From a virus, in the IMG/VR virus record IMGVR_UViG_3300042935_000920, positions 1 through 47,667 of that record: 47,667 nt of DNA. The stretch is one strand, 5' to 3'. Each line of letters begins with the position of its first letter. Positions within the stretch are counted from its first letter, which is position 1. The position numbers were made by a program, and so were the translations under genes. Under the pieces are notes generated by a model. It saw only the letters and a program-made list of their open reading frames with translations. It was not told the origin of the DNA and made no database searches. Below, in pieces: positions 14,928 through 39,723 of this stretch.

Positions 14928-14936
14928 TGAGATAAT
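14928..14936 (+). promoter_or_regulatory. Extended -10, leaderless
   Basis: TGAGATAAT, six bases before the ATG at 14943. Confidence 0.6.
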
Positions 14937-14942
14937 AGCGAT

Positions 14943-15674: not shown

Positions 15675-15675
15675 T
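15667..15675 (+). promoter_or_regulatory. Extended -10, leaderless
   Basis: TGGTATAAT overlapping the TAA of the previous gene, six bases before the ATG at 15682. Confidence 0.7.
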
Positions 15676-15681
15676 AAAACT

Positions 15682-19161: not shown

Positions 19162-19730
19162 AAGAGCCACAATTAATAAATAGTTTATTAAATGCTGAAG
19201 ATTATACAAGACTGCTTGAGTCTTTAGACAATCCTAAAAGTTTTGGTTTTGATCCTGGATTTAGTAGGTACTGCATTGGAGACTTTGATCTTCCAATTCT
19301 TGGTGAATTAGCAGATAAACTAGTAGACACTGCAAGACAAGTATTTGATAGTGAATCTTTAATGCCAACATATACCCTATTTGCACATTATGAAGGACAA
19401 AACCCTACCCCAAGTCTTTACAAACATAAAGATGACAATGCATGCACATATACTCTTGATATGTGTGTTTATCAGAATAATCCGTGGGATTTGTGGGTAG
19501 AAGACAAAAACTATTGTCTTTATCCTAACCAGGCATTGGCATACTACGGCAATGATCAATTACATTGGCGTGAAGAATTTCCTAACCCAGAGACGAATCA
19601 TGTTGCTATGATTTTCTTTCATTTTGCAGAGCCAGATCATTGGTGGTTTACCAAGGGCGCAGAATATCTTCAGGTAGTCAGAGGGCAAATTACAGAAGAG
19701 CAGTGGGGGCTCAATTATGGCAACAAATAA
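19158..19730 (+). CDS. 2OG oxygenase-like protein, divergent
   Basis: 190 aa from ATG 19158 (a TTG nine bases earlier is less likely). SLYKHKDDNACTYTLDMCVY carries an HxD (HKD) and ALAYYGNDQLHWREEFPNP a possible distal His, followed by NHVAMIFFHFA. No Lys or Arg stands at the usual 2-oxoglutarate position. It may have altered cofactor binding or bind a non-standard substrate. The frame overlaps its neighbours on both sides. Confidence 0.6.
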   Translation: MKEPQLINSLLNAEDYTRLLESLDNPKSFGFDPGFSRYCIGDFDLPILGELADKLVDTARQVFDSESLMPTYTLFAHYEGQNPTPSLYKHKDDNACTYTLDMCVYQNNPWDLWVEDKNYCLYPNQALAYYGNDQLHWREEFPNPETNHVAMIFFHFAEPDHWWFTKGAEYLQVVRGQITEEQWGLNYGNK

Positions 19731-20754: not shown

Positions 20755-21773
20755 AGACAGCATTAGTCTTAGGAGCAGGTGGTTTTATTGGAAGCCATAT
20801 GGTAAAGCGTTTAAAGTCTGAAGGATACTGGGTTCGTGGAGTAGACCTAAAACATCCAGACTTTTCTGAAACACAAGCAGATGAATTTATTGAAAGAGAT
20901 CTGTCAGTATACGACAACATGGAAAAGGTTGTTCAGTTTAAGGGTTATGCTGGTAATTTTTATTCAGAGATACCATATAAATTAATTACATCATTTGACG
21001 AAATATATCAGTTTGCTGCAGACATGGGTGGTGCTGGATATATTTTTACTGGAGATAACGATTCCCAGATTATGGAAAACTCAGCATTAATTAATTTAAA
21101 CTTACTTAGAGCACAATCAAGACTAAACAAAAAATACGAGATTAACAAGACCAAGATATTCTACTCAAGTTCAGCATGTATGTATCCCGATTACAAACAA
21201 CTAGAAACCAATAATCCTGGACTCAAAGAATCAGATGCGTACCCTGCAGATCCCGATAGCGAATATGGTTGGGAAAAACTGTTTAGCGAAAGACTATTTC
21301 TAGCATTTAACAAGAACAACAAGATACCAGTTGCAATAGCAAGATATCATAACATCTTTGGGCCAGAAGGAACATGGGATGGTGGTAAAGAAAAAGCACC
21401 TGCAGCAATGTGTAGAAAAGTTATTCAGGCAACAGATTCTATAGAAATTTGGGGCGACGGTGAACAAACTCGTTCATTCTTGTTTATTGATGAATGCATA
21501 GATGCAACCAAAAAACTTATGGAATCAGACTTTACGGGACCAATCAATATTGGCTCTGAAGAAATGGTAACAATAAACCAGTTAGTAGACACAGCCTGCT
21601 CTATTGAAGGAAAGTCTTTAAAGAAAAATCATATTTCAGGACCATTGGGTGTTCGTGGAAGAAACTCAAACAATGATTTAATCAGAGAAAAACTACAGTG
21701 GGACTATTCTCTGCCATTGCAAAACGGTATAGAAAAAACCTACAATTGGATTAAAAGTCAAATAAATGGATAA
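20751..21773 (+). CDS. GDP-mannose 3,5-epimerase
   Basis: 340 aa from the ATG at 20751. An NAD-binding GAGGFIGSH loop near residue 8, SSACMYPDYKQLET with the serine, YGWEK as the Tyr-x3-Lys pair, RYHNIFGPEGTWDGGKEKAP and IWGDGEQTRSFLFIDEC are hallmark stretches of this enzyme, which converts GDP-D-mannose to GDP-L-galactose and GDP-L-gulose. GDP-L-fucose synthase is a relative, but the GTWDGGKEKAPAA stretch fits the 3,5-epimerase better. A GGAAGGAG site lies upstream. It feeds the two adjacent glycosyltransferases (inference). Confidence 0.8.
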   Translation: MKTALVLGAGGFIGSHMVKRLKSEGYWVRGVDLKHPDFSETQADEFIERDLSVYDNMEKVVQFKGYAGNFYSEIPYKLITSFDEIYQFAADMGGAGYIFTGDNDSQIMENSALINLNLLRAQSRLNKKYEINKTKIFYSSSACMYPDYKQLETNNPGLKESDAYPADPDSEYGWEKLFSERLFLAFNKNNKIPVAIARYHNIFGPEGTWDGGKEKAPAAMCRKVIQATDSIEIWGDGEQTRSFLFIDECIDATKKLMESDFTGPINIGSEEMVTINQLVDTACSIEGKSLKKNHISGPLGVRGRNSNNDLIREKLQWDYSLPLQNGIEKTYNWIKSQING

Positions 21774-22605
21774 GGCTGAAGTTGTAAGAGAAGTTTTTTT
21801 GCAAGATGGCATTGGAGCACAACTATGGAGAAAACTATTCTGCATGTCTTATGCAAAATACCACAACCTTCTTTTTGAAGACAGTCCAATTACAGATTTT
21901 TTAATTCATGAATCTGACAAAGTTTACAGCGAAGAAGAAAAGGTTAAATTCATAGATAAGTTTAATACAATATTAAGTAACCCTTGGAAAGATATAGACT
22001 TTTCTAACAAAGACAGTTTTGTTCTTTGTGATAAAGTTGGCTTAGGATACGAAATATTGTACAAAAATGCAGGAGTAATAGATCAGCCATGGACATTCTT
22101 AGATGTTGCCAAAGAATTTAGCACTATAGAAAAAACAGAAAACAATGTAGTGATTCATATAAGAAGAGGCAATGTTCTTCCAGAAAATCCAAGATGGGTA
22201 GAAGAATCTGTTTATGTAGACATGTTGCAACGACTTCCAGACTTTTTAAAAAAACTAAATATTGTTCCAGACAGAGTAATAATTTTAACAGATGCTCCAG
22301 ATTCAAACAAAAAGTTTAAGCCTATAAATCAAAATCAATTAGATAAATGGAGACAACCTCATTTACACAAAGACGAAAACGATTCTTTTGACACAATGTC
22401 TATAAACTTTAAATTACTTAGGGATGCATATCCAGGTATTGAAATTTTAAATAATCTAGATACCTATACAGCATTTACTATGATGGTAATGGCAAAAGTT
22501 TTAATAACTGGTAGATCTGCCTTCAGCGAATCTGCGGGTCTACTATCAAAAAACACTGTTTTGTCAGTTAATAACTATCGCAGTTTTTTTGAAAGTATGC
22601 AATAA
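21766..22605 (+). CDS. GT11-like fucosyltransferase
   Basis: 279 aa. VREVFLQDGIGAQLWRKLF at the N-terminus is like the GLGNQ-type donor loop, and NNVVIHIRRGNVLPENP has the HxRRG motif of alpha-1,2-fucosyltransferases. LITGRSAFSESAGLLSKNTV is the C-terminal motif of the same family. It overlaps the epimerase gene by eight bases. It probably adds the GDP-L-sugar to a glycan. Together with the two preceding genes it forms a sugar cassette. Confidence 0.7.
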   Translation: MDKAEVVREVFLQDGIGAQLWRKLFCMSYAKYHNLLFEDSPITDFLIHESDKVYSEEEKVKFIDKFNTILSNPWKDIDFSNKDSFVLCDKVGLGYEILYKNAGVIDQPWTFLDVAKEFSTIEKTENNVVIHIRRGNVLPENPRWVEESVYVDMLQRLPDFLKKLNIVPDRVIILTDAPDSNKKFKPINQNQLDKWRQPHLHKDENDSFDTMSINFKLLRDAYPGIEILNNLDTYTAFTMMVMAKVLITGRSAFSESAGLLSKNTVLSVNNYRSFFESMQ

Positions 22606-26954: not shown

Positions 26955-28235
26955 ATGGCAACAAGAATGCAACAGCGCAGAGGAACTGCACAGCAGTGGA
27001 CTACTGCAAACCCAACACTTGGAGCAGGTGAAATTGGATTTGAGACCGACACAAATAAATTTAAAATTGGTAATGGATCTTCAAACTGGGCTGCACTATC
27101 ATATTTTGCTAACACAGCAGGCCTTGAAGCACTCCTTAATGACGGCGCACCTGCAGCACTAAATACTCTTAATGAAATCGCAGCAGCAATTAATGATGAC
27201 CCAGCGTTTTTTACAACAATTGCAACTAATCTAAGTACACACGAATCAGACACATCTGTTCACGGGATTGCAGATACATCAGTCCTTGCAACTTTCTCAT
27301 ATGTCACAGACGCAATTGCTTCAGTTACAGGTGAGTATTCAGACCTTGCTGGAACAGGACTTGCTTGGAACTCAGGAACAAACTCACTTGAAATTGATAA
27401 CACAGTAGCAACAGAAACTTATGCAGATGGAGCAGTAACAACACATAACTCAGCAACAGCAAATGTTCATGGAATTGCAGATACATCAATCCTTGCAACT
27501 ACAACAAATGTGTCGACTGCTCAAACAGCAGCAGAAACAACAGCATCTGGATATGTTACAACACATAACTCAGCAACAACAAATGTTCATGGAATTGCAG
27601 ATACTAGCATACTAGTTACAACAACTGGAACACAAACTTTAACAAATAAAACAATTACATCTCCTGTAGGACTTGCAAAGGCAGATGTAGGACTTGGAAA
27701 TGTTGACAACACAGCAGATGCATCAAAGCCAGTATCTACAGCACAGGCTACAGCGATTCAAACTGCTAAAACAGAAGCAATTGCAGATGCAACATCTCAG
27801 GTAAATGCAATTCTTGCAGGTGCTCCAGCAGCCCTTAACACACTTGATGAACTTGCTGCAGCCCTTGGGGATGATGCAAACTTTGCTTCAACAGTAACAA
27901 CTAGTCTTGGATTAAAGGTAGATTCTTTAACACCTATTACTCAAAAGACTGCCTCATACACACTTTCAACATTAAATCACAGAGATGATTTAATTGAAAT
28001 GGGATCGGCTTCAGCACTTACATTAACAATTCCTCTAAATGCAACAATTGCATACCCAGTTGGAACATCTATAGATATTCTTCAAACTGGAGCGGGACAA
28101 GTAACAATTGCTGGAACAGCAGGAGTAACAGTAAATGCAACACCAGGATTAAAGTTAAGAACTCAGTGGTCATCTTGTACTCTGTTTAAGAGAGCAGAAA
28201 ACACTTGGGTTGTCTACGGCGATCTAACAGCGTAA
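26955..28235 (+). CDS. 426-aa tail fibre with Mtd_N-like start
   Basis: MATRMQQRRGTAQQWTTANP, then LGAGEIGFETDTNKFKIGNG is the N-terminal module of many phage fibres (major-tropism-determinant type). The middle has repeats (HNSATANVHGIADTSILATT, and variants). The last 110 residues (ASALTLTIPLNATIAYPVGT, then WVVYGDLTA) match the N-terminal region of the PVAPT fibre at 16663-18075. It is a likely receptor-binding fibre. Confidence 0.75.
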   Translation: MATRMQQRRGTAQQWTTANPTLGAGEIGFETDTNKFKIGNGSSNWAALSYFANTAGLEALLNDGAPAALNTLNEIAAAINDDPAFFTTIATNLSTHESDTSVHGIADTSVLATFSYVTDAIASVTGEYSDLAGTGLAWNSGTNSLEIDNTVATETYADGAVTTHNSATANVHGIADTSILATTTNVSTAQTAAETTASGYVTTHNSATTNVHGIADTSILVTTTGTQTLTNKTITSPVGLAKADVGLGNVDNTADASKPVSTAQATAIQTAKTEAIADATSQVNAILAGAPAALNTLDELAAALGDDANFASTVTTSLGLKVDSLTPITQKTASYTLSTLNHRDDLIEMGSASALTLTIPLNATIAYPVGTSIDILQTGAGQVTIAGTAGVTVNATPGLKLRTQWSSCTLFKRAENTWVVYGDLTA

Positions 28236-28266: not shown

Positions 28267-29076
28267 ATGGCAGCAGGTAAAAAAGCAGGTAAGAAGTCTC
28301 AAGCGTCTAACGACTTTCTAGAGCCATTAGCACCAACAAGCGTATCTGCTACAAACGTAGGTACTGGTAGAGCATTTAATAATGGCTCAGCAACAGTTAC
28401 CTTTTCTTTACCAGCACTTTCTCCTGCAGCCACATCCTTTACAGTAACTTCAAGCCCAGGGGGATTCACAGCCACTGGTGCCAGTTCACCACTTACAGTA
28501 ACTGGTCTTCAGTCAAATACAGCATATACATTTACAGCAACAGCAACAAATGCTGCAGGAACATCTGCTGCATCATCTGCCTCAGCATCAATTACTGCAA
28601 CAACAGTTCCAGCAACACCTTCAGCACCAACCGTAACCACACAGGTTAACCAGGACAATGTTTCTTGGTCTGCCCCAGCAAACGGTGGTTCTGCAATTAC
28701 TGGCTACACCTGGGCATCTTCTGATGCAAAGGGTGCAACAGTGGGTTCAGGAACTATAAGCGTTGCAGTTACTCAAGAAGGAGGAACTGCTCAGACATAT
28801 ACAGTTTATGCAACAAATGCTAATGGAAATTCTTTAACTTCAGCAGCCTCTAACTCTGTTACCACTACTCCTCCGTTCTTCCCACCGTTCTTCCCACCAT
28901 TCTTCCCGTTCTTCCCACCATTCTTCCCACCATTCTTCCCGTTCTTCCCGTTCTTCCCACCGTTCTTCCCACCATTCTTCCCGTTCTTCCCACCATTCTT
29001 CCCACCATTCTTCCCACCATTCTTCCCACCATACTTCGCCCCACCTACATTCTCTGGCGCGATGGCATTCTTCTAA
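28267..29076 (+). CDS. FN3-domain protein with Phe-Pro repeat tail
   Basis: 269 aa. Two FN3-like domains: residues ~20-115 (APTSVSATNVGTGRAFNNGS to SASASITATT) and ~116-200 (SAPTVTTQVNQDNVSWSAPA to SAASNSVTTT). Then about 55 residues of (F)FPP and FFP repeats and the end YFAPPTFSGAMAFF. FN3 domains sit on phage tails and bind surfaces. The tail is extremely hydrophobic and Pro-rich. It sits just before the oxygenase cassette. The repeat could be an assembly zipper, a membrane-active segment or a hydroxylation target (inference). Confidence 0.75.
   Translation: MAAGKKAGKKSQASNDFLEPLAPTSVSATNVGTGRAFNNGSATVTFSLPALSPAATSFTVTSSPGGFTATGASSPLTVTGLQSNTAYTFTATATNAAGTSAASSASASITATTVPATPSAPTVTTQVNQDNVSWSAPANGGSAITGYTWASSDAKGATVGSGTISVAVTQEGGTAQTYTVYATNANGNSLTSAASNSVTTTPPFFPPFFPPFFPFFPPFFPPFFPFFPFFPPFFPPFFPFFPPFFPPFFPPFFPPYFAPPTFSGAMAFF
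28873..29037 (+). repeat. Phe-Pro coding repeat
   Basis: Tandem short units of TTCTTCCCACC- and TTCTTCCCG-type, encoding FFPP and FFP in mixed order. Codons are nearly uniform (TTC, CCA), consistent with recent expansion by slippage. Confidence 0.9.
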
Positions 29077-29178: not shown

Positions 29179-29892
29179 ATGTCGGTATATGATGAAAATT
29201 CAAATCCTTGGTTTACTAAGGATAGATCAGAAACTGCTATAAATAGATTTCCAACTAGGACAATAGAGGATAGTATTGTAGTTGAAAACCCAGCACTAGG
29301 GATAAATCTATATAGAAATGTTTTTTCAAAAGAAGATTCAGAAAGATATATAAACACTCTTGAATCAAATCTTGATGGCACTAAAAAATATAAATGGTCA
29401 GAGGCTACAGTTACAAATTCTCCTAATCCAATTAAAAAAGCAAGAGACTGTGTAGATTTTAAATATAAACAAGAAAATCTTGGACCAAGAGATCAAGACA
29501 ACTCTGAACTAATCGATTTACACGAAGAAATATATCAAAAACTTAAATACTGTGTAGACGATTACGCAAAATATTGGGGAATAAATGTTGTTTATTATGA
29601 AGCCTTTAATTTTGTAAAATATGAAGGAGAAGGAAAACATTTTAATATACACGCAGACCACGGACCAGCCTATAACTGTACAGTTTCTGCTGTAATTTAT
29701 ATTAATGATGACTATGAAGGCGGAGAAATAAAATTTCCAAGACTTGATGGATATGTTCACACTCCTAAAGTTGGGGATATTCTTCTTTGCCCATCTAATT
29801 ATATTTATGAGCATGCTTCTTTGCCAATGAAATCAGGGGCAAAATATTGTGTTGTTGTAATGACTGATATAAATGAGTTAGGACACAAGTAG
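29179..29892 (+). CDS. 2OG/Fe(II) oxygenase (P4H-like)
   Basis: 237 aa. FNIHADHGPAYNCTVSAVIY holds H158 and D160, YINDDYEGGEIKFP the typical turn, SNYIYEHASLP the distal His (212), and AKYCVVV a Lys (222) in the position of the usual Arg. The RDCVDFKYK and EAFNFVKY stretches are shared with 30677-31360, so the two are close paralogues. First gene of the cassette. The final stop is shared with the next GTG start. Confidence 0.85.
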   Translation: MSVYDENSNPWFTKDRSETAINRFPTRTIEDSIVVENPALGINLYRNVFSKEDSERYINTLESNLDGTKKYKWSEATVTNSPNPIKKARDCVDFKYKQENLGPRDQDNSELIDLHEEIYQKLKYCVDDYAKYWGINVVYYEAFNFVKYEGEGKHFNIHADHGPAYNCTVSAVIYINDDYEGGEIKFPRLDGYVHTPKVGDILLCPSNYIYEHASLPMKSGAKYCVVVMTDINELGHK

Positions 29893-30668
29893 TGACTACA
29901 AAAAGTAATAAAATTATATTTAAACCACTTAGGCCATGGCTAAATAAAAATAGCGTTAATGTTCCTGTTCCAACACAAAAAGAAACTCCAGGTTGGTATA
30001 AGGATGCAGACAGGTTTGCAAAGATGCCAAACGGAGAATACTACAAAGCACCAAAAGAAGTTTGTCCATTTCCTAAAGAAGGAACCGTAGACGACTATGG
30101 AAGAATCCCTACATGGAAAGCCTGTCCAGCAATAATGGATGCATTTATAACTGGCTACGTTTTTAAAACTCCTTGCGATTTAACATTTACTAAAAATAGT
30201 TCAGGGTATTTAGATGTTAAGGTTGAGAACCCAATGTATACAGAATTTTGTATGCCAAGACCACCAATGCCACAGTTTGAACACCCTAAAGGATACTATA
30301 AACACCACTTTGCTTGGATGGCAGACTGGGGAATGAAACTACCAGAAGGCTATAGCGCTTTGTTTATGACACCAATGAATAGATTTGACCTCCCATTTAT
30401 AAATACAACTGGTGTTGTTGATTCTGATAAAGTTCATCTTCTTGGCAGTTTCCCATTTTTTATTGCAGATGGTTGGGAGGGAACACTCCCAGAAGGAACT
30501 CCATACCTACAAGTTCTTCCATTTAAAAGAGAAAATTGGGAGCACAAAATAGAAGATCTTGATCAGTCTACTGCCTACAACGAATTAATAGAAAATAGAA
30601 AGTTTTATAGACAGCCTGACGGCGGTGTATATAAAAATAAAGTATGGTCAAGAAGAGAATATAAATAG
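29892..30668 (+). CDS. 258-aa conserved phage protein (DUF6065-like)
   Basis: Starts at GTG 29892 (TAGTG overlap). IPTWKACPAIMDAFITGYVF, then FAWMADWGMKLPEGYSALFM and TPMNRFDLPFINTTGVVDSD are stretches found in a conserved phage family of unknown function that I believe corresponds to DUF6065. It is paired with 31360-32088, which has the same layout. It contains several Trp and His. A small-molecule or sugar binding role would fit the cassette but is inference. Confidence 0.6.
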   Translation: MTTKSNKIIFKPLRPWLNKNSVNVPVPTQKETPGWYKDADRFAKMPNGEYYKAPKEVCPFPKEGTVDDYGRIPTWKACPAIMDAFITGYVFKTPCDLTFTKNSSGYLDVKVENPMYTEFCMPRPPMPQFEHPKGYYKHHFAWMADWGMKLPEGYSALFMTPMNRFDLPFINTTGVVDSDKVHLLGSFPFFIADGWEGTLPEGTPYLQVLPFKRENWEHKIEDLDQSTAYNELIENRKFYRQPDGGVYKNKVWSRREYK

Positions 30669-30676
30669 GAGATAAA

Positions 30677-31360
30677 ATGCAAACATGGACAGAAAAAGTA
30701 AATCTAGGCAATGGAATAGTTTGCTATAGAGGAGTAATTAAAAAAGAGTTTGATGTTATTAATAGACTTGAAAACGCCCTTGGATCAGTTGCTTTATATG
30801 GAGAGTTATCCCCAGAGGGTAATAGATACCACTGGATGCCAGCGTATGTTGGATATCAAAAACTTATGCCAGAATATAGGGACTGCGTAGACTTTAAATT
30901 TAAAAAAACAGACATAGAGCAAGACCCTAGCGAAGAATCTCTAAAGTTGCAGGCTATTTGGCAAGATGTATATGATGCTCAGTTTGCAGCAGTGGAAGAC
31001 TACAGAAGAGATCATAGCATTATGCCGTTAAAGTATTGGGAAGCATTTAACTTTATAAAGTATGGTCCAGGACAACACTTTAAAGAGCATCACGATCACG
31101 GCTTTTCATATAATTGTACAGTTTCTCTTGTCGCATATGTCAATGATGATTACGAAGGTGGGGAATTGTACTTTAGGCTACAAGACCTAAATATAAAAGC
31201 ACAGGCTGGAGACTTGTATATTTTTCCATCAAACTTTATGTATCCTCATCAGGCTATGCCAGTTACTTCGGGAACTAAATATTCAATTGTTACAATGTTA
31301 GATTACAGCAAAAAGTTTCATACCCCAGATATGTATGATCCAAAATGGGATAATGAATAG
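30677..31360 (+). CDS. 2OG/Fe(II) oxygenase (P4H-like)
   Basis: 227 aa with an AGGAG site before ATG 30677. FKEHHDHGFSYNCTVSLVAY supplies H138 and D140; YVNDDYEGGELYF the turn; SNFMYPHQAMP the distal His (191); TKYSIVTM the Lys (201). Close paralogue of 29179-29892. Pair separated by the 258-aa gene. Its stop is shared with the GTG of the next gene. Confidence 0.85.
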   Translation: MQTWTEKVNLGNGIVCYRGVIKKEFDVINRLENALGSVALYGELSPEGNRYHWMPAYVGYQKLMPEYRDCVDFKFKKTDIEQDPSEESLKLQAIWQDVYDAQFAAVEDYRRDHSIMPLKYWEAFNFIKYGPGQHFKEHHDHGFSYNCTVSLVAYVNDDYEGGELYFRLQDLNIKAQAGDLYIFPSNFMYPHQAMPVTSGTKYSIVTMLDYSKKFHTPDMYDPKWDNE

Positions 31361-32088
31361 TGTTTAAAATATCGGCTGAAAAATCTCATGGTGCTTTATT
31401 TAATATTGCTCCGATGTCTATAAAAAGAGAGTGGATGGATGCAACTTCCGAAGGTCACGCTTATAGATGTTTTCCAGTAACACAGTCAAATGTGGTTGGA
31501 TGGAGTCTTTCCTGTATTGAAGATATAGAGTTTATTTGGGATGGTGTAAATGATCAAACTGCAGAACATATTGAAATTATTAAAGCACCAGAAGGATCCT
31601 ATGGAGGAAGAGGTCAATCATCTATAAGTTTTAATACTGGATTAATATTTAGAACTGAACAAAATGTTAGTATATTTACTATTAATCCAGTTAATTATTT
31701 TAGCAATGATTTTGAAACAATGTCAAACATCGTCAGTACATCTTTTTATGACAATCCTCTTCCATTAGCAATCAAAGCAAAATCACCTAACAAAAACATT
31801 ATTATTAAAGCGGGAACTCCGCTTGCAACAATAGTTCCTATTTCTCTTTCAGATTTAAACAATACATCAATAGAAGTTGTTGATTATAAAGATGAAGATA
31901 GAAAAAGAGTAGATGCGAATATATCTTATGGAGATGCAGCACAAGTGATAAATTCTGCTGGAAAGTGGACAGACTGGTATAGAGATGCTGTAAACGAAAA
32001 AGGAGAAACTCTGGGTGAGCACGAAGTTAGGGTTTTAAAGTTATCGGTAGAAGATAATACAAAAAATAAACAGAATGGTATAATATAA
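31360..32088 (+). CDS. 242-aa protein, relative of 29892-30668
   Basis: Opens with GTG 31360 (TAGTG). GWSLSCIEDIEFIWDG aligns with GYVFKTPCDLTFTKN of the 258-aa protein, GLIFRTEQNVSIFTINPVNY with the GYSALFMTPMNRF region, and AGTPLATIVPISLSD with GTPYLQVLPFKR. So it belongs to the same family but is divergent. Each lies next to a P4H-like gene. Function unknown. Confidence 0.6.
   Translation: MFKISAEKSHGALFNIAPMSIKREWMDATSEGHAYRCFPVTQSNVVGWSLSCIEDIEFIWDGVNDQTAEHIEIIKAPEGSYGGRGQSSISFNTGLIFRTEQNVSIFTINPVNYFSNDFETMSNIVSTSFYDNPLPLAIKAKSPNKNIIIKAGTPLATIVPISLSDLNNTSIEVVDYKDEDRKRVDANISYGDAAQVINSAGKWTDWYRDAVNEKGETLGEHEVRVLKLSVEDNTKNKQNGII
32076..32084 (+). promoter_or_regulatory. Extended -10, leaderless
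   Basis: TGGTATAAT, six bases before the ATG at 32091, inside the end of the previous gene. Second promoter within the cassette. Confidence 0.65.
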
Positions 32089-32090
32089 TT

Positions 32091-32762
32091 ATGAATAATG
32101 CAGACAACGTTGTAATAAGAAAGCCATCAATGACACCTTCTGGATGGTTTGGTAATGGTAAAGAAAATATTGTCGAGTTAGAAAATTTTATGACTCAAGA
32201 AGAATTAGAATTGCTTGACAAAGCAGCAAGAACTTTGACTGTGTGGGATCAAACACAAAGCCACGTAAATGAAAATGGAACAGTTGTCTATGATGCTGGA
32301 TTTTGGAAAGACAGAGTGGCTAGTGCTCCATCTTTAAACCAAAACGATCCAAGAATAGTTCCAGTAATTTCTGGTCTAGTCGAAAGATTAAAACCAATTG
32401 TAGAAGAGTTTTTTCAAGTCAAAGCACAACCTACAGGACAAACAATTGTTAAGTGGCTTCCAGGTCAACTACAGAGGCCTCACGCAGACAAAGAACTTCA
32501 TGAAGGTCCAGATGCTGGAAAGCCAAATGATTTCCCTCAGTATGATATCGCAAGTTTGTTTTATATTAATGATGACTATGAAGGAGGAGAGTTGTACTTT
32601 CCTTTACAAAAAGTTCAGTTTAAACCAAAGCGTGGAGCAGCATACTTTTTCCCAGGGGATAAGGAATATATTCACGGAGTAACAGAGATAACTAGTGGGC
32701 TCAGGTATACCTGCCCATTCTTTTGGGAAATATTAAAGCACACAGGAGATAGACAGCCATGA
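32091..32762 (+). CDS. 2OG/Fe(II) oxygenase (P4H-like)
   Basis: 223 aa. QLQRPHADKELHEGPDAGKP gives H131 and D133, FYINDDYEGGELYFP the turn, KEYIHGVTEI the distal His (195) and SGLRYTCPF the Arg (205). All canonical residues are present. Overlaps the next gene by ATGA. Confidence 0.88.
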   Translation: MNNADNVVIRKPSMTPSGWFGNGKENIVELENFMTQEELELLDKAARTLTVWDQTQSHVNENGTVVYDAGFWKDRVASAPSLNQNDPRIVPVISGLVERLKPIVEEFFQVKAQPTGQTIVKWLPGQLQRPHADKELHEGPDAGKPNDFPQYDIASLFYINDDYEGGELYFPLQKVQFKPKRGAAYFFPGDKEYIHGVTEITSGLRYTCPFFWEILKHTGDRQP

Positions 32763-33625
32763 TAAATTCTGATCTAAATCCAGTTGAGGTTTACCCTAAG
32801 ATATTTGTTTATAAAAATGTTTTTAAAGATATTAATGCTACATATTCTCAACTAAAGGAATCTAACGGAGAAGATGATGGATTGTTTAGTCCTTGGACAA
32901 AATGGTCTCATTTTGGAGAATATCTAAATCCTACATTTACAGATCATCCACACAGATTAAGCGTTGACTACCTTGAGAAAATAGAAACAAAAACAGAAAA
33001 AGAAGAACTACAAAGACTCGCAATCCTTGAACTTTTTAAGAATTTTCATTTAGTTACTGAAGACTATGCTTCACGTAATAGTGTAGACCTTGACAAAACA
33101 AAAACGGTATTGTCAAATGATGGCAAAACTAAAGAAGAGTGGCAAATGACTGGACCATCTATAGCAAGATATAGAACAGACATTGATGACCCAATTGCAA
33201 TGACATATCATTCAGACTATATTAGAGAGCCTATCATTAGTCCAGGATACAAGTTTGCTATAACAGCCCTTGCTTATTTTAATGATGATTATGAGGGTGG
33301 AGAGATTGATTTTATTGTAAATGGAGAGGCATATAAGTATAAGCCAGAGGCTGGAGACTTTCTTGTTTTCCCTTCTGGGCACCCTGAAATACTAAAAAAT
33401 GGAGACAGTGTATATCTTCATGGAGTAATGCCAGCAACAGGAGCAAGTAAATACCTTTCTAGGATGTATTGGATGAAGTATTCTGTAGGAGATCCTGAGT
33501 GGTTTGAAAAAGAAAAAGAGTTTGGTAAAGATGTTTGGGCAGAAATGCAACCAGACATTATGCAAAAATTTAGAGATGAAAATCCTAACAAAAGTAATGC
33601 TGACAAAGAAAGAAGGATAAAATGA
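32759..33625 (+). CDS. 2OG/Fe(II) oxygenase, long form
   Basis: 288 aa, longest of the set. TYHSDYIREP carries HxD, AYFNDDYEGGEIDF the turn, SVYLHGVMPA the distal His and ASKYLSRMYW a Lys in place of Arg. The region between HxD and the distal His is longer than in its neighbours (insert with NGEAYKYKPEAGDF). The C-terminal tail is charged (EFGKDVWAEMQPDIMQKF). ATGA coupling on both sides. Confidence 0.85.
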   Translation: MINSDLNPVEVYPKIFVYKNVFKDINATYSQLKESNGEDDGLFSPWTKWSHFGEYLNPTFTDHPHRLSVDYLEKIETKTEKEELQRLAILELFKNFHLVTEDYASRNSVDLDKTKTVLSNDGKTKEEWQMTGPSIARYRTDIDDPIAMTYHSDYIREPIISPGYKFAITALAYFNDDYEGGEIDFIVNGEAYKYKPEAGDFLVFPSGHPEILKNGDSVYLHGVMPATGASKYLSRMYWMKYSVGDPEWFEKEKEFGKDVWAEMQPDIMQKFRDENPNKSNADKERRIK

Positions 33626-34377
33626 ATCTAAATAATAAAAAAAGAATAACAAAAGATATAGTTGTTTATGAAAACTTTATTAGTGATGAAGAGTGTAAAA
33701 AAATGATTCAAGCACTTGATGCTCAAGCAGAAAGTGAAAAGTTGTCCTGGATGCCTATATCATTTTATGAGTCATACTCTTCTGTCCTTCCACAAGATAA
33801 CGATCAAGAGGTGCTTGATGCTGGATTATCTCCAACTATTTTTTCAGACATTGAAAAAGCAATGCCAGAAGCAATTGCTTCAGTTCACGACCTTGATCCA
33901 AAAACAATTTGTAAAATTGGATATCACACACAAAAGTGGGAGCCTGGAGCATATGCAAGAATACACTCAGACAACACAGATGCTGAAGGAAAGTCTGGAG
34001 CATTTACAAGAAGCAGATATGCTGGATTCCTTTACTTAAATGATGACTTTGAGGGCGGACTATTAAAGTTCCCAGGACAAGAAATAGAGATTCAGCCAAA
34101 GGTTGGAATGCTTGCCGTATTTGACGGGGGATTTAGCAATATGCACGAAGTAACTTTGATTGAAAGTGGAGTAAGATACACCATCGGATCTTTCTGGGAT
34201 GATCGTGAAGAGGATGCTTACCCACAAGAATTAAGAGATGCTTGGGCTGCAGAAATGAAAGCAACAAGAGCCCAGCAAGAGATTGAAAGAGCAGAGTGGC
34301 AAGACTTGTTAAAAGAAGGATACAAGTTAGATAAAGACGGAAATAAATACAAGATAGAAGATGTTGATAATGATTGA
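33622..34377 (+). CDS. 2OG/Fe(II) oxygenase with charged tail
   Basis: 251 aa. YARIHSDNTDAEGKSGAFTR has H115 and D117, YLNDDFEGGLLKFP the turn, FSNMHEVTLI the distal His (175) and SGVRYTIGSFW the Arg (185). The last 60 residues are a helical, charged extension (EIERAEWQDLLKEGYKLDKD) absent from the neighbours, perhaps for protein binding. ATGA overlap with 32759-33625. Confidence 0.85.
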   Translation: MNLNNKKRITKDIVVYENFISDEECKKMIQALDAQAESEKLSWMPISFYESYSSVLPQDNDQEVLDAGLSPTIFSDIEKAMPEAIASVHDLDPKTICKIGYHTQKWEPGAYARIHSDNTDAEGKSGAFTRSRYAGFLYLNDDFEGGLLKFPGQEIEIQPKVGMLAVFDGGFSNMHEVTLIESGVRYTIGSFWDDREEDAYPQELRDAWAAEMKATRAQQEIERAEWQDLLKEGYKLDKDGNKYKIEDVDND

Positions 34378-35029
34378 TTCTTTTAAAAAACAATTAAAAG
34401 AAAGCGGATACTCTTTTGAAGAAATTACCTCAGAACTAATATCGGTTGAAAACTTTTTGTCAAAAGATCAGTTAAATACTCTAAACAGTATTATAGATAG
34501 TACATCGCAAGAAGATTGGGAAGTAGAATACCACGCTAACTTAAAAACATTTTGTATGAAAAAATTTGGAAGAGATGATGTAGAAAACCTTGTTGCTGAA
34601 GGTAAGTTTGAAATTACACAAAACTGGAAAGATAAAAATTTTAATATATCTAATCATGAAATATACCATCCAATGTATGAGGTTTTAAATTCAATGGTAA
34701 TTGACTCAGACTCAACATTACATTTAAGTGGACTTGCAACAATTCAAAGAATGCAGCCAGGCGTAGAGTTAAAATCACACACAGATCAAAACACAGACCC
34801 CTCTATTAAATATGCTACAATTGTATATATAAATGATGACTATTTAGAGGGTGAACTATTTTTCCCAAATTTGGATATAAAGTTAAAGCCCAAGCCAGGA
34901 ACAATGTTGTTTTTTCCAGGGAATAAAGAGTATGAGCATGGAGTAAACTATGTAGCAGAAGGACCAACAAGATATGTTCTTGTAGGTTTTATAAAAGACA
35001 AAGATCATTATGAAAACAATAGGTACTAG
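34370..35029 (+). CDS. 2OG/Fe(II) oxygenase (P4H-like)
   Basis: I start at ATG 34370; an in-frame ATG at 34361 is also possible. About 219 aa. VELKSHTDQNTDPSIKYATI (HxD), VYINDDYLEGELFFP (turn), NKEYEHGVNYV (distal His) and GPTRYVLVGF (Arg). All canonical. It overlaps the previous gene by eight bases. Confidence 0.85.
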   Translation: MIDSFKKQLKESGYSFEEITSELISVENFLSKDQLNTLNSIIDSTSQEDWEVEYHANLKTFCMKKFGRDDVENLVAEGKFEITQNWKDKNFNISNHEIYHPMYEVLNSMVIDSDSTLHLSGLATIQRMQPGVELKSHTDQNTDPSIKYATIVYINDDYLEGELFFPNLDIKLKPKPGTMLFFPGNKEYEHGVNYVAEGPTRYVLVGFIKDKDHYENNRY

Positions 35030-35039
35030 GAGGAGTTAA

Positions 35040-35774
35040 ATGAATAAAGAAATATTAGACCCAAAGGTTTATTACTATACAGATGCAATAGATAATTTTG
35101 ATAAGTTTCAGTCAACACTAAAGGAGTTAGACTACCTTGATTCAAACAATGAAACTGGGGTAAATGTTTGGAACCCTTGGACATCATCTAATGATAAAAG
35201 TTTTATTTATGGCGAAACAAAGACATTTGATATTAATGCAATAAACAAGTTTGAAGGAGAAGTAGGAGAAAAAAGCAAGTATATTTATGATTCAATAATG
35301 AATACTTTGTATAATGTTTGCAAAGACTATGCTACATCTATTGGAGATTTTGATGAACCAAGAATTTTCCCAACCTTTAATATAAAAAAATATAACACTG
35401 GAACAGGTATGGGTGCACACTTTGATCAATTAGACGGAGACAAAACTTTGAGATACTCTCTCGTAATGTATCTAAATGATGACTGCGAAGGGGGAGAAAT
35501 CTCTTTTCAATTAAAGGATTATGATGGTGGATGGACAAGTTCTGATGGATTCTCTAAAGGATCTGCACCAGCAGTAGACTTAGACTATGATATATCTGTA
35601 GCAAATAAAGCAATTGATTTTGGACTAAAACCAAAAGCAAATAGCGTTATCATATTCCCAGCATTTCCTCCATACTTTCATACAGCACATATTGTGAAGT
35701 CTGGTTTTAAATATATGGTTCCTGCACACTGGATTCATAATGGAATGGATCTTAACAAATCTCAGGGGATGTAA
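35040..35774 (+). CDS. 2OG/Fe(II) oxygenase with Asp-rich insert
   Basis: 244 aa with a GGAGGAG site. GAHFDQLDGDKTLRYSLVMY (HxD), YLNDDCEGGEISF (turn), FPPYFHTAHIV (distal His) and SGFKYMVPAHW (Lys). A ~40-residue insert (DYDGGWTSSDGFSKGSAPAV, then DLDYDISVANKA) lies between HxD and the distal His, possibly a substrate-recognition loop. Confidence 0.85.
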   Translation: MNKEILDPKVYYYTDAIDNFDKFQSTLKELDYLDSNNETGVNVWNPWTSSNDKSFIYGETKTFDINAINKFEGEVGEKSKYIYDSIMNTLYNVCKDYATSIGDFDEPRIFPTFNIKKYNTGTGMGAHFDQLDGDKTLRYSLVMYLNDDCEGGEISFQLKDYDGGWTSSDGFSKGSAPAVDLDYDISVANKAIDFGLKPKANSVIIFPAFPPYFHTAHIVKSGFKYMVPAHWIHNGMDLNKSQGM

Positions 35775-36437
35775 GTGAAAACAGCAATAGTTACAGGTGC
35801 CAGTAAAGGCGTTGGCTATGCCACTGTAAAACTTTTATCTGAAAACGGATACAAGGTTATTGCTGTTTCTAGAGATTTGTCTAAAGTTATTAATTTAGTT
35901 TCTGATAATGTTGAAGTTTATAGACTGGACATAACTAGCGCTGATGAGATTAAAAGGTTTCACGAAAAGTATAGTGACATAACTCTTGACTTGCTTGTTA
36001 ATAATGCAGGAGGAGGATCAGGTCCTACTCATATAATTAATGAAACAATGGATAACTTTAGAATAGCGTATGATATAAATGTATCTGGTCCAATGTATCT
36101 TTCACAACTATTTGTTCCTTCTATGAAAAAGTCAGAATCTCCTACAATTATTTTTATTAGTTCTTTGGGTGGAAAGTTTCCATATAGATCAGGAGGAAAC
36201 TATACTAACGCTAAAAGAGGTATGATGGCTCTTGTAGATACTATGAGATTAGAGTTTCCAGAATATGGAATTAAGATTACTGAAATTTGTCCAGGTACAA
36301 TAGATACACAAGAAGAAAAAAAGAATGCTGCATTAACAGCAGAAGATATGGCAGAGTGCATTAGGTGGGTATCTGAGTTACCAAAGCATGTAAATATAAA
36401 TCACATAGAGGTAAACCACATACTTAGTGGTAAATAA
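35775..36437 (+). CDS. Short-chain dehydrogenase/reductase
   Basis: 220 aa. Opens with GTG 35775 directly after the previous TAA. TGASKGVG is the NAD(P) loop, LLVNNAGGGS the NNAG motif, FISSLGGKFPYRSGGNYTNAK carries the catalytic Ser and the Y-x3-K pair. It oxidises or reduces a hydroxyl or carbonyl group. Being inside an oxygenase cassette, it could act on a hydroxylated product or sugar (inference). Confidence 0.8.
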   Translation: MKTAIVTGASKGVGYATVKLLSENGYKVIAVSRDLSKVINLVSDNVEVYRLDITSADEIKRFHEKYSDITLDLLVNNAGGGSGPTHIINETMDNFRIAYDINVSGPMYLSQLFVPSMKKSESPTIIFISSLGGKFPYRSGGNYTNAKRGMMALVDTMRLEFPEYGIKITEICPGTIDTQEEKKNAALTAEDMAECIRWVSELPKHVNINHIEVNHILSGK

Positions 36438-36448
36438 TTTGGAGAAAT

Positions 36449-37015
36449 ATGAAAATAAATAAACTTTATGATGATGTATATGAAGTAGAAGAATTTTTAA
36501 CAGAGCAAGAACTTGCCGATGTTTATACTATAATCAACAATACTCCAGAAGAAGATTGGTTTGATGAAGCAGCAAGGGATGAAAATAAAACTCCAGATTT
36601 TTGGTATGGAAAAAACCTATACTTTAAATCAACAAATGTTTTTGATTTAATAAACGATAAGATGAGAAATCTTTTTGAGTCCTATTCTTACTATCCTGAA
36701 AAGACACATTTGCAAAGATATAAAAAAGGTGACTTTATTAAACACCACGCAGACCAGTGGATTCCAGATTTGCCATACTACATAGGATATGGATTTTGTT
36801 TGTATTATAATGATGACTATTTAGGCGGGGAGTTAGATTATCCAGATCTAAAAATTACAATTAAACCAAAAGCAAATGCATTATATATACACGGGGGGCA
36901 CATAGTCCACGGCTCTCTGCCAGTCCTAGATGATACAATAAGATACTTCTCTACTGTTTTTATACGTGGAACAGAGGATTCTCCAACAAGACTAAAGAAA
37001 GAGTTATTTAAATGA
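36449..37015 (+). CDS. 2OG/Fe(II) oxygenase (P4H-like)
   Basis: 188 aa. DFIKHHADQWIPDLPYYIGY (HxD), YYNDDYLGGELDYP (turn), GGHIVHGSLPV (distal His) and TIRYFSTVFIRG (Arg). All canonical residues are present. A GGAG site lies upstream. Overlaps the next gene by ATGA. Eighth and last oxygenase of the cassette. Confidence 0.87.
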   Translation: MKINKLYDDVYEVEEFLTEQELADVYTIINNTPEEDWFDEAARDENKTPDFWYGKNLYFKSTNVFDLINDKMRNLFESYSYYPEKTHLQRYKKGDFIKHHADQWIPDLPYYIGYGFCLYYNDDYLGGELDYPDLKITIKPKANALYIHGGHIVHGSLPVLDDTIRYFSTVFIRGTEDSPTRLKKELFK

Positions 37016-37593
37016 TACATAACATAACACAGCAAGAACAGTTTGTAATTGATATTTTAGATAAAAAGAAAAATGGATATTATGTAGAGTTGGGTGCAGC
37101 ACACTATAGCAATGGTAATAACACTTTTTCGTTAGAGCAAGACTATGACTGGACTGGGGTTTCATTTGAAATAGTTGAGTCTATGAGAGATGAATTTAAT
37201 TCTAATAGAAAAAACCCTTGTATGGGTGATGCTCTTGCCTTTAACTATGTAGACTACTTTGAAAAAAACAACTTTCCAAAACAAATTGACTATCTACAAT
37301 TAGACATAGATGCTGGTTATGATAATTACGGTAGGCCAGTTGGAAATAGTCATTGGACACTTCAAGGATTAATAGCAGTTCCACTAAACACGTATAGATT
37401 TACTTTAATTACTTTTGAGCACGATGCAAATATGTATTGGAGAAATGATTCAATTAGAGATGCACAAAGAGAAATCTTGGATTCTTTTGGATACTCTTTA
37501 GTTCACAGATCTTTTCACGAAGATTGGTGGGTTGACTCAAATGTTATTGGTCACGGAGACTACAGAAAATACCTACACTGGCAAACATTGTAA
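37012..37593 (+). CDS. FkbM-like methyltransferase, degenerate
   Basis: 193 aa. YYVELGAAHYSNGNNTFSLE and DWTGVSFEIVESMRDEFNSN resemble the N-terminal SAM domain of FkbM-family O-methyltransferases, and QIDYLQLDIDAGYD continues it. The usual Gly-rich SAM loop (DIGAHxG) reads ELGAAHYSN, so binding may be altered. These enzymes usually methylate sugar hydroxyls. The last residues (HGDYRKYLHWQTL) are unusual. ATGA coupling with the oxygenase. Confidence 0.6.
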   Translation: MIHNITQQEQFVIDILDKKKNGYYVELGAAHYSNGNNTFSLEQDYDWTGVSFEIVESMRDEFNSNRKNPCMGDALAFNYVDYFEKNNFPKQIDYLQLDIDAGYDNYGRPVGNSHWTLQGLIAVPLNTYRFTLITFEHDANMYWRNDSIRDAQREILDSFGYSLVHRSFHEDWWVDSNVIGHGDYRKYLHWQTL

Positions 37594-37689: not shown

Positions 37690-39723
37690 ATGTCAGATTT
37701 TTTTAGTTTTAAACTTCCAGAGGACTTCGTAGAAAAGTACAAGAACCAAGCAAGCCCATTTGGGTTTAAAGATGCAGCAGAAAATTCACTTGGAGAAATT
37801 ACTTTTATTCGTACTTACTCAAGAATGAAGGAAGATGGAACCAAAGAGAGATGGCATGAGGTTTGTCGTCGTGTAATCGAGGGTATGTATTCAGTTCAAA
37901 AGAATCACGCTAAAGAAAACCGCCTACCGTGGAATGACTACAAGGCTCAGAAGTCAGCACAAGAAGCATTCCAAAGAATGTTTGAATTAAAGTGGACACC
38001 ACCAGGCCGAGGTATGTGGGCATTTGGAACTCCTATGACTATGGAGAAGAAGAACTCAGCAGCACTACAAAACTGTGCAATGGTATCAACAAAGGACCTT
38101 GATAAGAATGATCCAGGAGCCTTGTTTGCTTGGGTTATGGATGCATTGATGCTTGGCATTGGTGTAGGGTTTGATACAGTTGGACAGGATAAGAATTTTT
38201 CAATCTACACCCCAACAGAACCAGAAGAGATCTTTGAAATCCCAGACACTCGTGAAGGTTGGGTAGAATCAGTTAGACTTCTGATCAATTCATATTTAAG
38301 AGCAAACCAGAGTATTCAGAAATTTAACTATGATTTGATCAGACCCCTAGGAGCCCCTATCAAGGGCTTTGGAGGCGTTGCATCAGGACCTGCACCTCTT
38401 ATCAAGTTGCACGACCAGATAGACCGTGTAATCGGCTCCAGAGGCGGAGAAACACTAGATTCTCGTGCCATTGTAGACTTAGTAAACCTTATTGGTACTT
38501 GCGTTGTATCAGGCAATGTTCGTAGATCAGCAACTCTTGCTTTGGGTAATGCAGGGGATGAAACATTTATGAATCTAAAGAACTCAGAGATGTTCCCAGA
38601 GCGCAACTCATTTGATCCAGAAAATCCAGGTTGGGCTTGGATGTCTAATAATTCTATTTCAGCAGAAGTAGGAACAAAGTATGAAGACTATGTAGATTTA
38701 ATTACAGAAAATGGAGAACCAGGTTTTATCTGGCTTGATGTTGCTCGTAATTATGGCAGACTAAAGGATGCGCCAGATGGGAAAGATTATCGTGTGATGG
38801 GCTTTAACCCTTGTGCGGAGCAGCCATTGGAATCATATGAATTATGTACACTTGTAGAAGTGCACCTAAATCGTCACGAATCTAAGGAAGACTTCCTGCG
38901 TACCCTGAAGTTTGCATACTTGTATGGAAAGACTGTAACACTTGTTCCAACACACTGGCCACAAACAAACGGTATTATGCAACGCAATCGTCGTATTGGT
39001 ACATCTCTTACTGGTATTGCATCATTTGCAGATCAAAAAGGTTTGCCAATTGTTCGTGAATGGATGGATGAAGGCTACAACAAGATTCGTCACTATGATC
39101 ACCAATATTCAGAATGGCTATGTGTTCGTGAATCAATTCGTGTAACAACAGTTAAGCCATCAGGATCAGTTTCAATTCTTTCTGGTGCAACTCCTGGAGT
39201 TCACTGGGGACCTGGAGGAAACTTTTTCCTTCGTGCAGTTCGTTTTGGAAACACAGACCCAATGATGCACTTGTTCAAAGCAGCGGGGTACACAATTGAA
39301 GATGACGTAGTATCAGCAAACACATCAGTAGTTTACTTCCCAATCAAGTCAGGTCATCCAAGATCTGAAAAGGATGTTACATTATTTGAAAAGATTGCAC
39401 TTGCTGCAACTGCTCAGAAGTACTGGTCAGACAATGGTGTTTCTGTAACACTTTCATTTGACAAGGAAACAGAGTCAAAGCATGTTGTTCCAGCACTGCA
39501 TATGTACGAGGGACAGTTAAAGGCAGTTTCATTTCTTCCAATGGGAAATCATACATATCCCCAACAGCCATATACTCAGATTACTGAAGAGCAATATGAG
39601 TCCTATATTGGTAAGTTGAAGCATATTGATTTTGCTGCTATTTATGACGGAGCAGAAAATCTTGAGGCTCAAGGAGAGATGTACTGCACCACAGACTACT
39701 GTGAAATTAAAATAAACAAGTAG
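37690..39723 (+). CDS. nrdJ: Adenosylcobalamin-dependent ribonucleotide reductase (class II)
   Basis: 677 aa, close to the monomeric class II type (about 700-740). ALQNCAMVS holds the first redox Cys (129); FNPCAEQPLESYELCTLVEV holds the thiyl-radical Cys (375), Glu (377) and second redox Cys (386); TVKPSGSVSILSG is the phosphate-binding loop; the C-terminal CTTDYC pair re-reduces the site. It makes deoxyribonucleotides for phage DNA synthesis and needs host or scavenged vitamin B12. It has its own promoter between fibre-modifying and structural genes. Confidence 0.88.
   Translation: MSDFFSFKLPEDFVEKYKNQASPFGFKDAAENSLGEITFIRTYSRMKEDGTKERWHEVCRRVIEGMYSVQKNHAKENRLPWNDYKAQKSAQEAFQRMFELKWTPPGRGMWAFGTPMTMEKKNSAALQNCAMVSTKDLDKNDPGALFAWVMDALMLGIGVGFDTVGQDKNFSIYTPTEPEEIFEIPDTREGWVESVRLLINSYLRANQSIQKFNYDLIRPLGAPIKGFGGVASGPAPLIKLHDQIDRVIGSRGGETLDSRAIVDLVNLIGTCVVSGNVRRSATLALGNAGDETFMNLKNSEMFPERNSFDPENPGWAWMSNNSISAEVGTKYEDYVDLITENGEPGFIWLDVARNYGRLKDAPDGKDYRVMGFNPCAEQPLESYELCTLVEVHLNRHESKEDFLRTLKFAYLYGKTVTLVPTHWPQTNGIMQRNRRIGTSLTGIASFADQKGLPIVREWMDEGYNKIRHYDHQYSEWLCVRESIRVTTVKPSGSVSILSGATPGVHWGPGGNFFLRAVRFGNTDPMMHLFKAAGYTIEDDVVSANTSVVYFPIKSGHPRSEKDVTLFEKIALAATAQKYWSDNGVSVTLSFDKETESKHVVPALHMYEGQLKAVSFLPMGNHTYPQQPYTQITEEQYESYIGKLKHIDFAAIYDGAENLEAQGEMYCTTDYCEIKINK

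Follow-up and report, generated by a model that had tools for sequence, protein, structure and literature searches.

Repeat-bearing fibre genes are linked to prolyl 4-hydroxylase-like oxygenases in a tailed phage and its relatives

Genes of the two islands

We analysed IMGVR_UViG_3300042935_000920, a linear record of 47,667 bases from a viral collection (the whole of it is called the window below), in which a cassette of eight prolyl 4-hydroxylase (P4H)-like 2-oxoglutarate (2OG) oxygenases follows a fibre gene with a Pro/Phe repeat. The window is a fragment of a tailed phage, with portal, prohead and capsid-side genes at its right end. Its portal is 46–48% identical to those of Streptomyces phages, for example Annadreamy and Yaboi, and because these are the best matches among isolates an actinobacterial host is suggested. 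The records examined carry no habitat label. An earlier note, made from the sequence alone, had proposed that the phage hydroxylates Pro, Lys or Asn on its fibres and then decorates them with sugar or sulfate. The main cassette lies in the first of two islands, which is bounded by a ribonucleotide reductase (RNR) gene. Genes are referred to by their first position or by the short names given here.

26955–28235, + strand: T3, tail-fibre/minor-tail protein, anchor of the island (PHROG 8780 minor tail, E 5.5e-23, and other tail-fibre families)
28267–29076, + strand: fibre, proposed substrate of the cassette; fn3-like domains (fn3, E 2.1e-8), then a (PPFFPFF)n tail at about residues 202–257
29179–29892, + strand: O1, P4H-like 2OG oxygenase (PF13640, 7.8e-9)
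29892–30668, + strand: D1, DUF6065-type (PHROG 7084, 3.9e-33; no Pfam match of its own)
30677–31360, + strand: O2, P4H-like 2OG oxygenase (PF13640, 1.5e-14)
31360–32088, + strand: D2, DUF6065 (PF19541, 9e-27; PHROG 7084, 2.1e-9)
32091–32762, + strand: O3, P4H-like 2OG oxygenase (PF13640, 1.2e-7)
32759–33625, + strand: O4, P4H-like 2OG oxygenase, absent or replaced in some relatives (PF13640, 2.4e-7)
33622–34377, + strand: O5, P4H-like 2OG oxygenase (PF13640, 4.6e-8)
34361–35029, + strand: O6, P4H-like 2OG oxygenase (PF13640, 4.2e-11)
35040–35774, + strand: O7, P4H-like 2OG oxygenase (PF13640, 3.6e-8)
35775–36437, + strand: short-chain dehydrogenase, optional member (PF00106, 1.1e-39; present in 3 of 5 relatives)
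36449–37015, + strand: O8, P4H-like 2OG oxygenase, optional (PF13640, 1.2e-4, below cut-off at 23.4 against 27 bits; orthologue in 1 of 5 relatives)
37012–37593, + strand: possible FkbM-type methyltransferase (by eye), optional (no family match; homologues in G010 at 92% and G033 at 70%)
37690–39723, + strand: RNR, bounds island 1 and was used for trees (PHROG 367, E 5.1e-143)

The fibre gene 28267 stands directly upstream of the cassette, and its tail, encoded by a minisatellite array at 28873–29037, is almost pure Pro and Phe. All eight cassette enzymes that the earlier note had called 2OG/Fe(II) oxygenases match PF13640, seven of them above the cut-off. Their HxD...H triad, described as intact, is invariant in an alignment of all eleven 2OG proteins of the window (nine PF13640, one PF05118 and one probable member), and in the nine PF13640 proteins, of which only 36449 falls below the cut-off, a Lys or Arg can be seen by eye where the 2OG-binding residue is expected. 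The NDDxxGGE turn was claimed too broadly: its strict form is present in six of the eight, but 33622 has NDDFEGGL and 34361 has NDDYLEGE. The description of the enzymes as divergent apart from the pair 29179/30677 was accurate. This pair is 42% identical, and identity to 30677 is 21–25% for the other seven PF13640 members and 16% for the remaining two proteins. By these values the eleven are old paralogues. Fresh duplication is ruled out by the range of 16–42%, and gene decay by the median dN/dS of 0.04–0.17 for each cassette gene, which indicates purifying selection. The two related conserved proteins (29892 and 31360) are of the DUF6065/PHROG 7084 family and the short-chain dehydrogenase is confirmed by PF00106, whereas the FkbM-like assignment of 37012 found no support in Pfam, PHROGs or NCBIfam.

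The second island also joins a fibre gene to oxygenases, and a further 2OG gene lies outside both islands.

16663–18075, + strand: second fibre, proposed substrate of 18562; fn3 (5.3e-7) at residues 296–373, between two (PTPVAP)n tracts
18562–19161, + strand: second-island P4H-like 2OG oxygenase (PF13640, 3.4e-17, 63.6 bits)
19149–19730, + strand: second-island probable 2OG oxygenase (PHROG 2954, 1.4e-13; no Pfam match)
19717–20754, + strand: O-fucosyltransferase-like protein, weak (PF10250, 1.1e-4, below cut-off)
20682–21773, + strand: NAD-dependent nucleotide-sugar epimerase/dehydratase (PF01370, 1.2e-35)
21766–22605, + strand: second of the fucosyltransferase-like genes named earlier (no Pfam match; weak matches only)
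11138–11722, - strand: Asp/Arg beta-hydroxylase-like 2OG oxygenase, outside both islands (PF05118, 1.6e-11)

Three 2OG enzymes had been named beyond the cassette. The one at 18562 belongs to PF13640, the one at 11138 is of another family, and the third, placed at 19158 and here called 19149, is a probable member in which HxD...H is invariant across 16 of 16 homologues. The gene described as a GDP-sugar epimerase, 20682, does match the PF01370 family, and its nearest named model is GDP-L-fucose synthase (NF047922, 6e-21, below cut-off). Of the two genes described as fucosyltransferase-like, 19717 retains its weak PF10250 match but no family was confirmed for 21766. The PTPVAP tandem repeats of the second fibre occupy 17338–17541 and 17804–17994. 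This minisatellite region (17338–17994) is the more varied of the two in DNA, with 8 versions among 19 words.

Covariation of repeat type and enzyme set

Relatives were taken as the best 80 per query; at least 594 portal relatives are present in viral contigs (best 80 fetched), and O5 alone has at least 598 viral matches. We searched 38 records and read eight whole: five with the cassette, picked for at least six PF13640 matches (G003, G005, G008, G010 and G033), and three as contrast (G004, G011 and G013). In the five, whose RNR is 96–99% identical, the gene order O1 D1 O2 D2 O3 (O4) O5 O6 O7 is kept at 42–91% identity, with the deviation that D1 lies ahead of O1 in G033; the cassette is thus more than a chance assembly. 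O5 is 86–88% identical throughout, O4 is missing from one relative, the dehydrogenase is found in three, 37012 in two and 36449 in one. All five also have the PPFF tail, although the G033 contig holds only the C-terminal part of its fibre, with a Hint-like end. Across relatives with 96–99% identical RNR and 78–97% identical portal, the stretch from 26955 to RNR consists of a fibre followed by this cassette or by other genes. The three contrasts, with portals 92–96% identical, have other tails and other genes, including members of a family that we call A6.

G004: tail FSPFGVFG; one A6 gene
G011: tail FTPYSFTPYA; a sulfotransferase-like gene and a DUF6065-type gene
G013: tail HYAGFYHGF; two DUF6065-type genes and one A6 gene

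We then compared 237 loci from three scans under a single scheme of open reading frame (ORF) calling and labelling. The caller was a simple longest-first one that missed at least one fibre (in L177, recovered in another frame), and family labels such as O7 or D3 are those of the nearest reference by blastp. 'AspHx/AspHy' was an early label for family A6 and does not assign it to PF05118. The loci held 128 repeat ORFs, of which 103 were kept, being the first met on each contig; the rest were on the same contig or too near its end. A Pro/Phe repeat is followed by at least three cassette oxygenases in 74 contigs and stands without them in 4, and the corresponding counts for Pro-poor, Phe/Gly-type repeats are 0 and 25. 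A scan that did not select for the cassette gives 41, 4, 0 and 15; loci from the portal query contributed no Pro/Phe rows to the 103. The four exceptions (L130, L140, L142 and L171) are second-island ORFs followed by homologues of 18562 and/or 19149. All four contigs carry another PPFF ORF, located at the first island; in L130, L140 and L171 seven P4H-like genes come after it, and the L142 contig ends there. The Phe/Gly-type rows divide into 19 at the first island and 6 at the second, and those at the first island are followed by DUF6065 and/or A6 family genes.

The reverse comparison started from the cassette, using the 68 contigs with at least 2.5 kb upstream. A strict count (at least five FFP within 4.5 kb) found the Pro/Phe-repeat fibre in 63, and inspection found it in the other five. 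L133 and L166 have FFGPPGFFAPP-type repeats and L177 has an intact PPFFPPSFPFFPPAFCPFFPNF repeat. L180 had been measured at its second island and has the same repeat type at its first. L162 starts PPFFPPSFPFFP, like L177, and then continues in unlike sequence, perhaps through a frame error. Relatives that carry the cassette without any Pro-rich fibre, which the earlier note had named as evidence against its proposal, were looked for, and none was found among the 68 testable contigs. The number of P4H-like genes rises with the Pro fraction of the repeat (Spearman 0.87 over 57 distinct complete islands). All 32 islands with repeat Pro of at least 0.30 have 4–8 P4H-like genes, and 23 of the 25 below 0.25 have none, the others being L149 with two and L162 with five. 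Every one of the 57 has a DUF6065-type and/or an AspH-labelled (A6-type) gene.

Phylogenies indicate that repeat and cassette change together. On an RNR DNA tree of 49 rows (32 with Pro/Phe tails) each changes 8 times (bootstrap 7–9), and their labels are concordant in 57 of 57 scored rows ending at RNR (39 and 18). The change is not confined to whole fibre genes. A Pro/Phe and a Phe/Gly fibre (L187 and L164) have fn3 parts that are 80% identical and differ in repeat and cassette, and on a tree of the fn3 part of 75 distinct fibres the repeat class changes at least three times; by this comparison, a recombination break can lie within the fibre gene. L255 has the cassette at another place in the genome, after a fibre whose N-terminal part is unrelated but whose PPFF tail is the same. 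These two observations go beyond exchange of a block: on this evidence repeat and enzymes are what travels together.

The second island provides a parallel case. A repeat protein lies within three genes upstream of the 18562 homologue in all 19 viral loci found to have one, 18 with XP repeats, of types (TP)n, PTPVAP, PVTP and APVPAPIP, and one with PPFF. Several of these loci are near-copies, so that they represent about eleven lineages by eye. Labelled sugar genes follow downstream in 15 of the 19. In loci not selected for 18562, 11 of 13 XP ORFs are followed by 18562 or 19149 homologues, and over all loci the count is 29 of 31; the two exceptions, in L136 and L151, are fibres of the first island, with DUF6065 after them. 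In five loci (L274, L275, L278, L280 and L283) none of the ORFs upstream of the repeat matches an ORF of the window, which indicates that the pair of XP repeat and P4H gene has been transferred among phage backbones. The two are often separated by a small gene for a DUF6171-like zinc-ribbon protein (L273:5771–6001, L283:5766–6008); the window's own copy lies elsewhere, at 9044–9244 on the minus strand.

Relatives of the enzymes and known systems

We built a profile (A7) from 18562, 17 homologues and seven of the eight cassette members and searched it against PDB sequences. The best matches were 3itq (1.7e-12), 5c5t (5.7e-10) and prolyl 3-hydroxylase 1 (1e-9). Each of the top five carries the name of a prolyl 4- or 3-hydroxylase, and the three best are near-copies of one protein; the next matches were PKHD-type (PiuC) and HIF prolyl hydroxylases. 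Single sequences agree: 18562 matches the prolyl 4-hydroxylases 5iax, 3itq and 5hv0 at 1.1e-6 to 1.2e-6, and O5 matches 3itq at 1.2e-5 and prolyl 3-hydroxylase 1 at 2.6e-4. By sequence comparison, the nearest solved relatives of the window's P4H-like enzymes are peptidyl prolyl hydroxylases.

PDB sequence searches with A6 and with DUF6065 returned nothing meaningful. One A6 member (L104:10944–11642) has no Pfam or PHROG match. Its AlphaFold model (pLDDT 88.3) has the double-stranded beta-helix fold of 2OG oxygenases, with a VIA Z of 16.6 to the uncharacterised 3bvc and 12.9 to PHD2 (3.4 Å over 177 residues), and a conserved His and Arg are visible in the family. The D1 model (29892; pLDDT 90.7) shows a modest fold likeness to dUTPases, little above noise (VIA Z 9.6 at best, 4.8 Å over 121 residues; 1sjn at VIA Z 9.4, 2.4 Å over 111 residues; best Foldseek E 8.1e-4). 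DUF6065 could be an enzyme or a helper; alternatively it could be a nucleotide-related gene neighbouring RNR, the arrangement seen in halovirus HF1. In HF1 (L089, 3857–4741) the DUF6065-type gene adjoins RNR, with a Gly-rich protein nearby, and is neutral as to pairing with repeats; 49 phage records hold a relative, all named viruses of halophilic archaea. A genome scan for D2-type DUF6065 gave the single locus L366 (JAFMJX010000128.1), in a Chitinophagaceae metagenome-assembled genome. Its genes are those of this phage group, with PPFF fibre and cassette, and its placement is probably a binning error. The wider DUF6065 Pfam family does occur in cells, as in our Caulobacter control genome.

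In some fibre homologues the repeat is followed by a C-terminal Hint domain resembling inteins; a rough pattern places it in about 14 of 118 fibres.

L097:15247–16545: fibre with Hint-like end
L104:9284–10888: fibre with Hint-like end
L107:3489–4517, - strand: fibre with Hint-like end
L255:5399–6367: fibre with Hint-like end
G033:3–656: fibre with Hint-like end

A profile of four Hint sequences matched the solved inteins 6rpp (3.1e-4) and 9hth (8.8e-4) and the bacterial intein-like 2lwy (0.0078). The domain could cut the fibre protein or couple it to another molecule. In L261 (9233–12409) and L262 a second large fibre-like ORF with Ser/Tyr-rich repeats lies downstream of the cassette.

Hydroxylated structural proteins are familiar as collagen in animals and extensin in plants, and such chemistry also occurs in chloroviruses. 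In plant and algal extensins and arabinogalactan proteins, XP repeats are hydroxylated by P4H and then O-glycosylated, and published abstracts agree with this. Island 2 resembles these hydroxyproline-rich glycoproteins in combining XP repeats, a P4H-like gene and sugar genes. It differs in being a phage operon with no endomembrane system, and the profile match to 3gze/2jig, which we take to be the Chlamydomonas P4H, is weak (1.1e-4). The entry 5c5t, matched at 5.7e-10, is presumably the P4H of chlorovirus PBCV-1, likewise encoded by a virus; PBCV-1 infects eukaryotic algae, whereas the window has nine P4H-like genes in a bacterial phage fragment, paired and exchanged with repeat fibres. Human LH3 and mimivirus L230 (6ax6 by our reading) are collagen lysyl hydroxylase/glycosyltransferases that join hydroxylation and sugar transfer on a repetitive structural protein. 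Profile matches to them are weak (1.6e-4 and 2.9e-4), and their target is Lys in Gly-X-Y, whereas the PPFF repeat has no Lys. The cyanophage 2OG-Fe(II) oxygenases of PHROG 61 belong to the same superfamily and also come in several copies per stretch. In Synechococcus phage S-SCSM2R (L362), 8011–16044 holds annotated 2OG oxygenases with several glycosyltransferases, a radical SAM protein and an amidinotransferase.

In the literature, the title of Eriksson 1999, as cited in PMC9301287, claims hydroxyproline in viral proteins, and a passage of PMC9301287 states that the viral use of prolyl 4-hydroxylase 'remains cryptic'. An older passage (PMC3368898) says that bacteria and viruses lack the enzyme for collagen Pro, and one in PMC12774648 lists PHROG 61 as one of the most common phage groups that have structural matches in human. 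In two freshwater actinophage papers (PMC6802176, PMC10202952) the words hydroxylase, oxygenase and proline are absent, and a search under the term DUF6065 returned no papers. Since we found no description of repeat-fibre and oxygenase pairs in the titles, abstract starts and passages searched, the modular, exchangeable form of this chemistry in bacterial phages appears new within these searches.

Candidate substrates and alternative explanations

We propose that the window carries two matched modules, each a fibre gene with a low-complexity repeat followed by oxygenases that would act on that repeat, and that the P4H-like enzymes hydroxylate Pro, perhaps also Phe, of the adjacent tract. We consider this probable, at about 0.72. 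Gene content, conserved catalytic residues, purifying selection, and the matching and joint switching of repeat and cassette are direct observations, and the evidence that repeat and cassette are linked is strong; the repeat as substrate, the residue modified, the glycosylation and the place of the fibre on the virion are inferred. The likeliest substrates would be the repeat tails of the adjacent fibres, 28267–29076 for the main cassette and 16663–18075 for 18562 and 19149, with Pro as the best-supported target residue.

The earlier proposal that the phage hydroxylates its fibres thus gains strong, indirect support from the 68 cassette contigs, all with a Pro/Phe-repeat fibre; the chemistry is a prediction from sequence. 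Its details fared unevenly. Hydroxylation of Lys or Asn is not supported at the window's PPFF tail because the repeat has neither residue, and the collagen-like fibres 13759 and 14943 are not favoured as substrates because it is the repeat next to the cassette that tracks the cassette. Only the second island, with fucosyltransferase-like and GDP-sugar epimerase-like genes after its P4H gene, makes sugar decoration plausible, and sulfation is represented by one weak match (PHROG 3347, E 7e-4).

In module 1, O1–O8 would hydroxylate prolines of the (PPFFPFF)n tail, probably at several ring positions and in several contexts, and this would account for the retention of seven or eight distinct enzymes. 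Phe may be the target of some of them, and the hydroxyls may be processed further by the dehydrogenase and the possible methyltransferase. In module 2, 18562, with 19149, would hydroxylate the (PTPVAP)n tracts. Products of the downstream genes may then attach sugars to the resulting hydroxyls, or to the threonines, much as happens in the hydroxyproline-rich glycoproteins of plants. Each repeat would be inherited as one unit with its enzymes, exchangeable for units with other repeats and oxygenases. The pairing suggests that these phages coat or stiffen their fibres with hydroxylated amino acids.

Several observations weigh against this proposal. With two residue types in the repeat, seven or eight enzymes seem many, and more than simple Pro 4-hydroxylation would need. 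Because repeat and enzymes lie side by side, some linkage is to be expected. The switches reduce to four independent ones when only well-supported branches are counted (sign test p 0.125, not significant), and the same holds for a protein tree. The repeat classes were set by patterns chosen after examples had been viewed, and many contigs are close kin that were deduplicated by contig and not by lineage, so that Fisher's p of 4e-20 overstates independence and the tree counts are the safer measure. L149 has its two P4H-like genes beside a low-Pro repeat, and of the six Phe/Gly rows at the second island three are followed by no P4H-like gene and three by one, which is O2-type in L160 and L165 and 18562-type in L163 (where the ORF scored as Phe/Gly also scores as XP). 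DUF6065 goes with repeats almost free of Pro and may be unrelated to modification. The PPFF tract is near-homogeneous in DNA (2 versions among 9 FFPPFF words), which shows that slippage shapes it. Lastly, none of four hand-picked cyanophage loci with similar 2OG enzymes has an XP, Pro/Phe or Phe/Gly repeat within 9 kb. These loci rule out a general rule for phage 2OG genes, and the pairing is a trait of the present phages.

A broader scheme of interchangeable fibre chemistry can be put forward tentatively, and we hold it to be somewhat doubtful. Here repeat/enzyme units would recombine within the fibre gene, so that a phage would change its surface chemistry by exchanging substrate and enzymes together, DUF6065 would be a new modifying enzyme or helper, and some oxygenases would hydroxylate Phe. 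The units would be Pro/Phe repeats with P4H-like enzymes, XP repeats with P4H and sugar genes, and Phe/Gly, Phe/Thr/Pro or His/Tyr/Gly repeats with DUF6065 and/or A6.

Other explanations would leave the fibre repeat unmodified or give it another role. Fibre tail and cassette might be exchanged as a host-range island whose oxygenases modify a metabolite, glycan or lipid of the host that the island suits. The island, flanked by conserved tail genes and RNR, is indeed replaced as a block, the dehydrogenase and sugar genes are of metabolic kinds, and phage 2OG genes elsewhere do without such repeats. However, P4H-type genes track the Pro content of the repeat and not its mere presence, the pairing outlasts changes of fibre N-terminal part, genome place and phage backbone, and the nearest solved relatives are peptidyl hydroxylases, which makes this explanation unlikely. 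It is more improbable still that the enzymes modify other proteins, such as the collagen-like fibres 13759 and 14943 of the same window, or host proteins such as elongation factor Tu (EF-Tu), with which a solved Pseudomonas P4H is titled as a complex (4iw3). The cassette follows the type of the adjoining repeat, while the collagen-like genes lie elsewhere, and a single host protein would not explain the matching to repeat type. The Hint-like ends of some homologues also allow the repeat protein to be read as the precursor of a secreted or cell-bound modified peptide, which Hint would cut or couple in some relatives, and not as a virion fibre. We give this very little weight: fn3 domains and the tail-protein neighbourhood point to a structural role, and the window's fibre, as read from its sequence, has no Hint domain.

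2OG oxygenases are widespread yet unexplained in aquatic phages, and the pairing with repeat fibres proposes a substrate for each enzyme set. If the proposed modification is correct, phages make hydroxyproline-rich and perhaps glycosylated fibres and swap this chemistry as a unit. The finding would then be relevant to how phages recognise their hosts, to the annotation of many 'auxiliary metabolic genes' and to the production of hydroxylated protein materials in bacteria.

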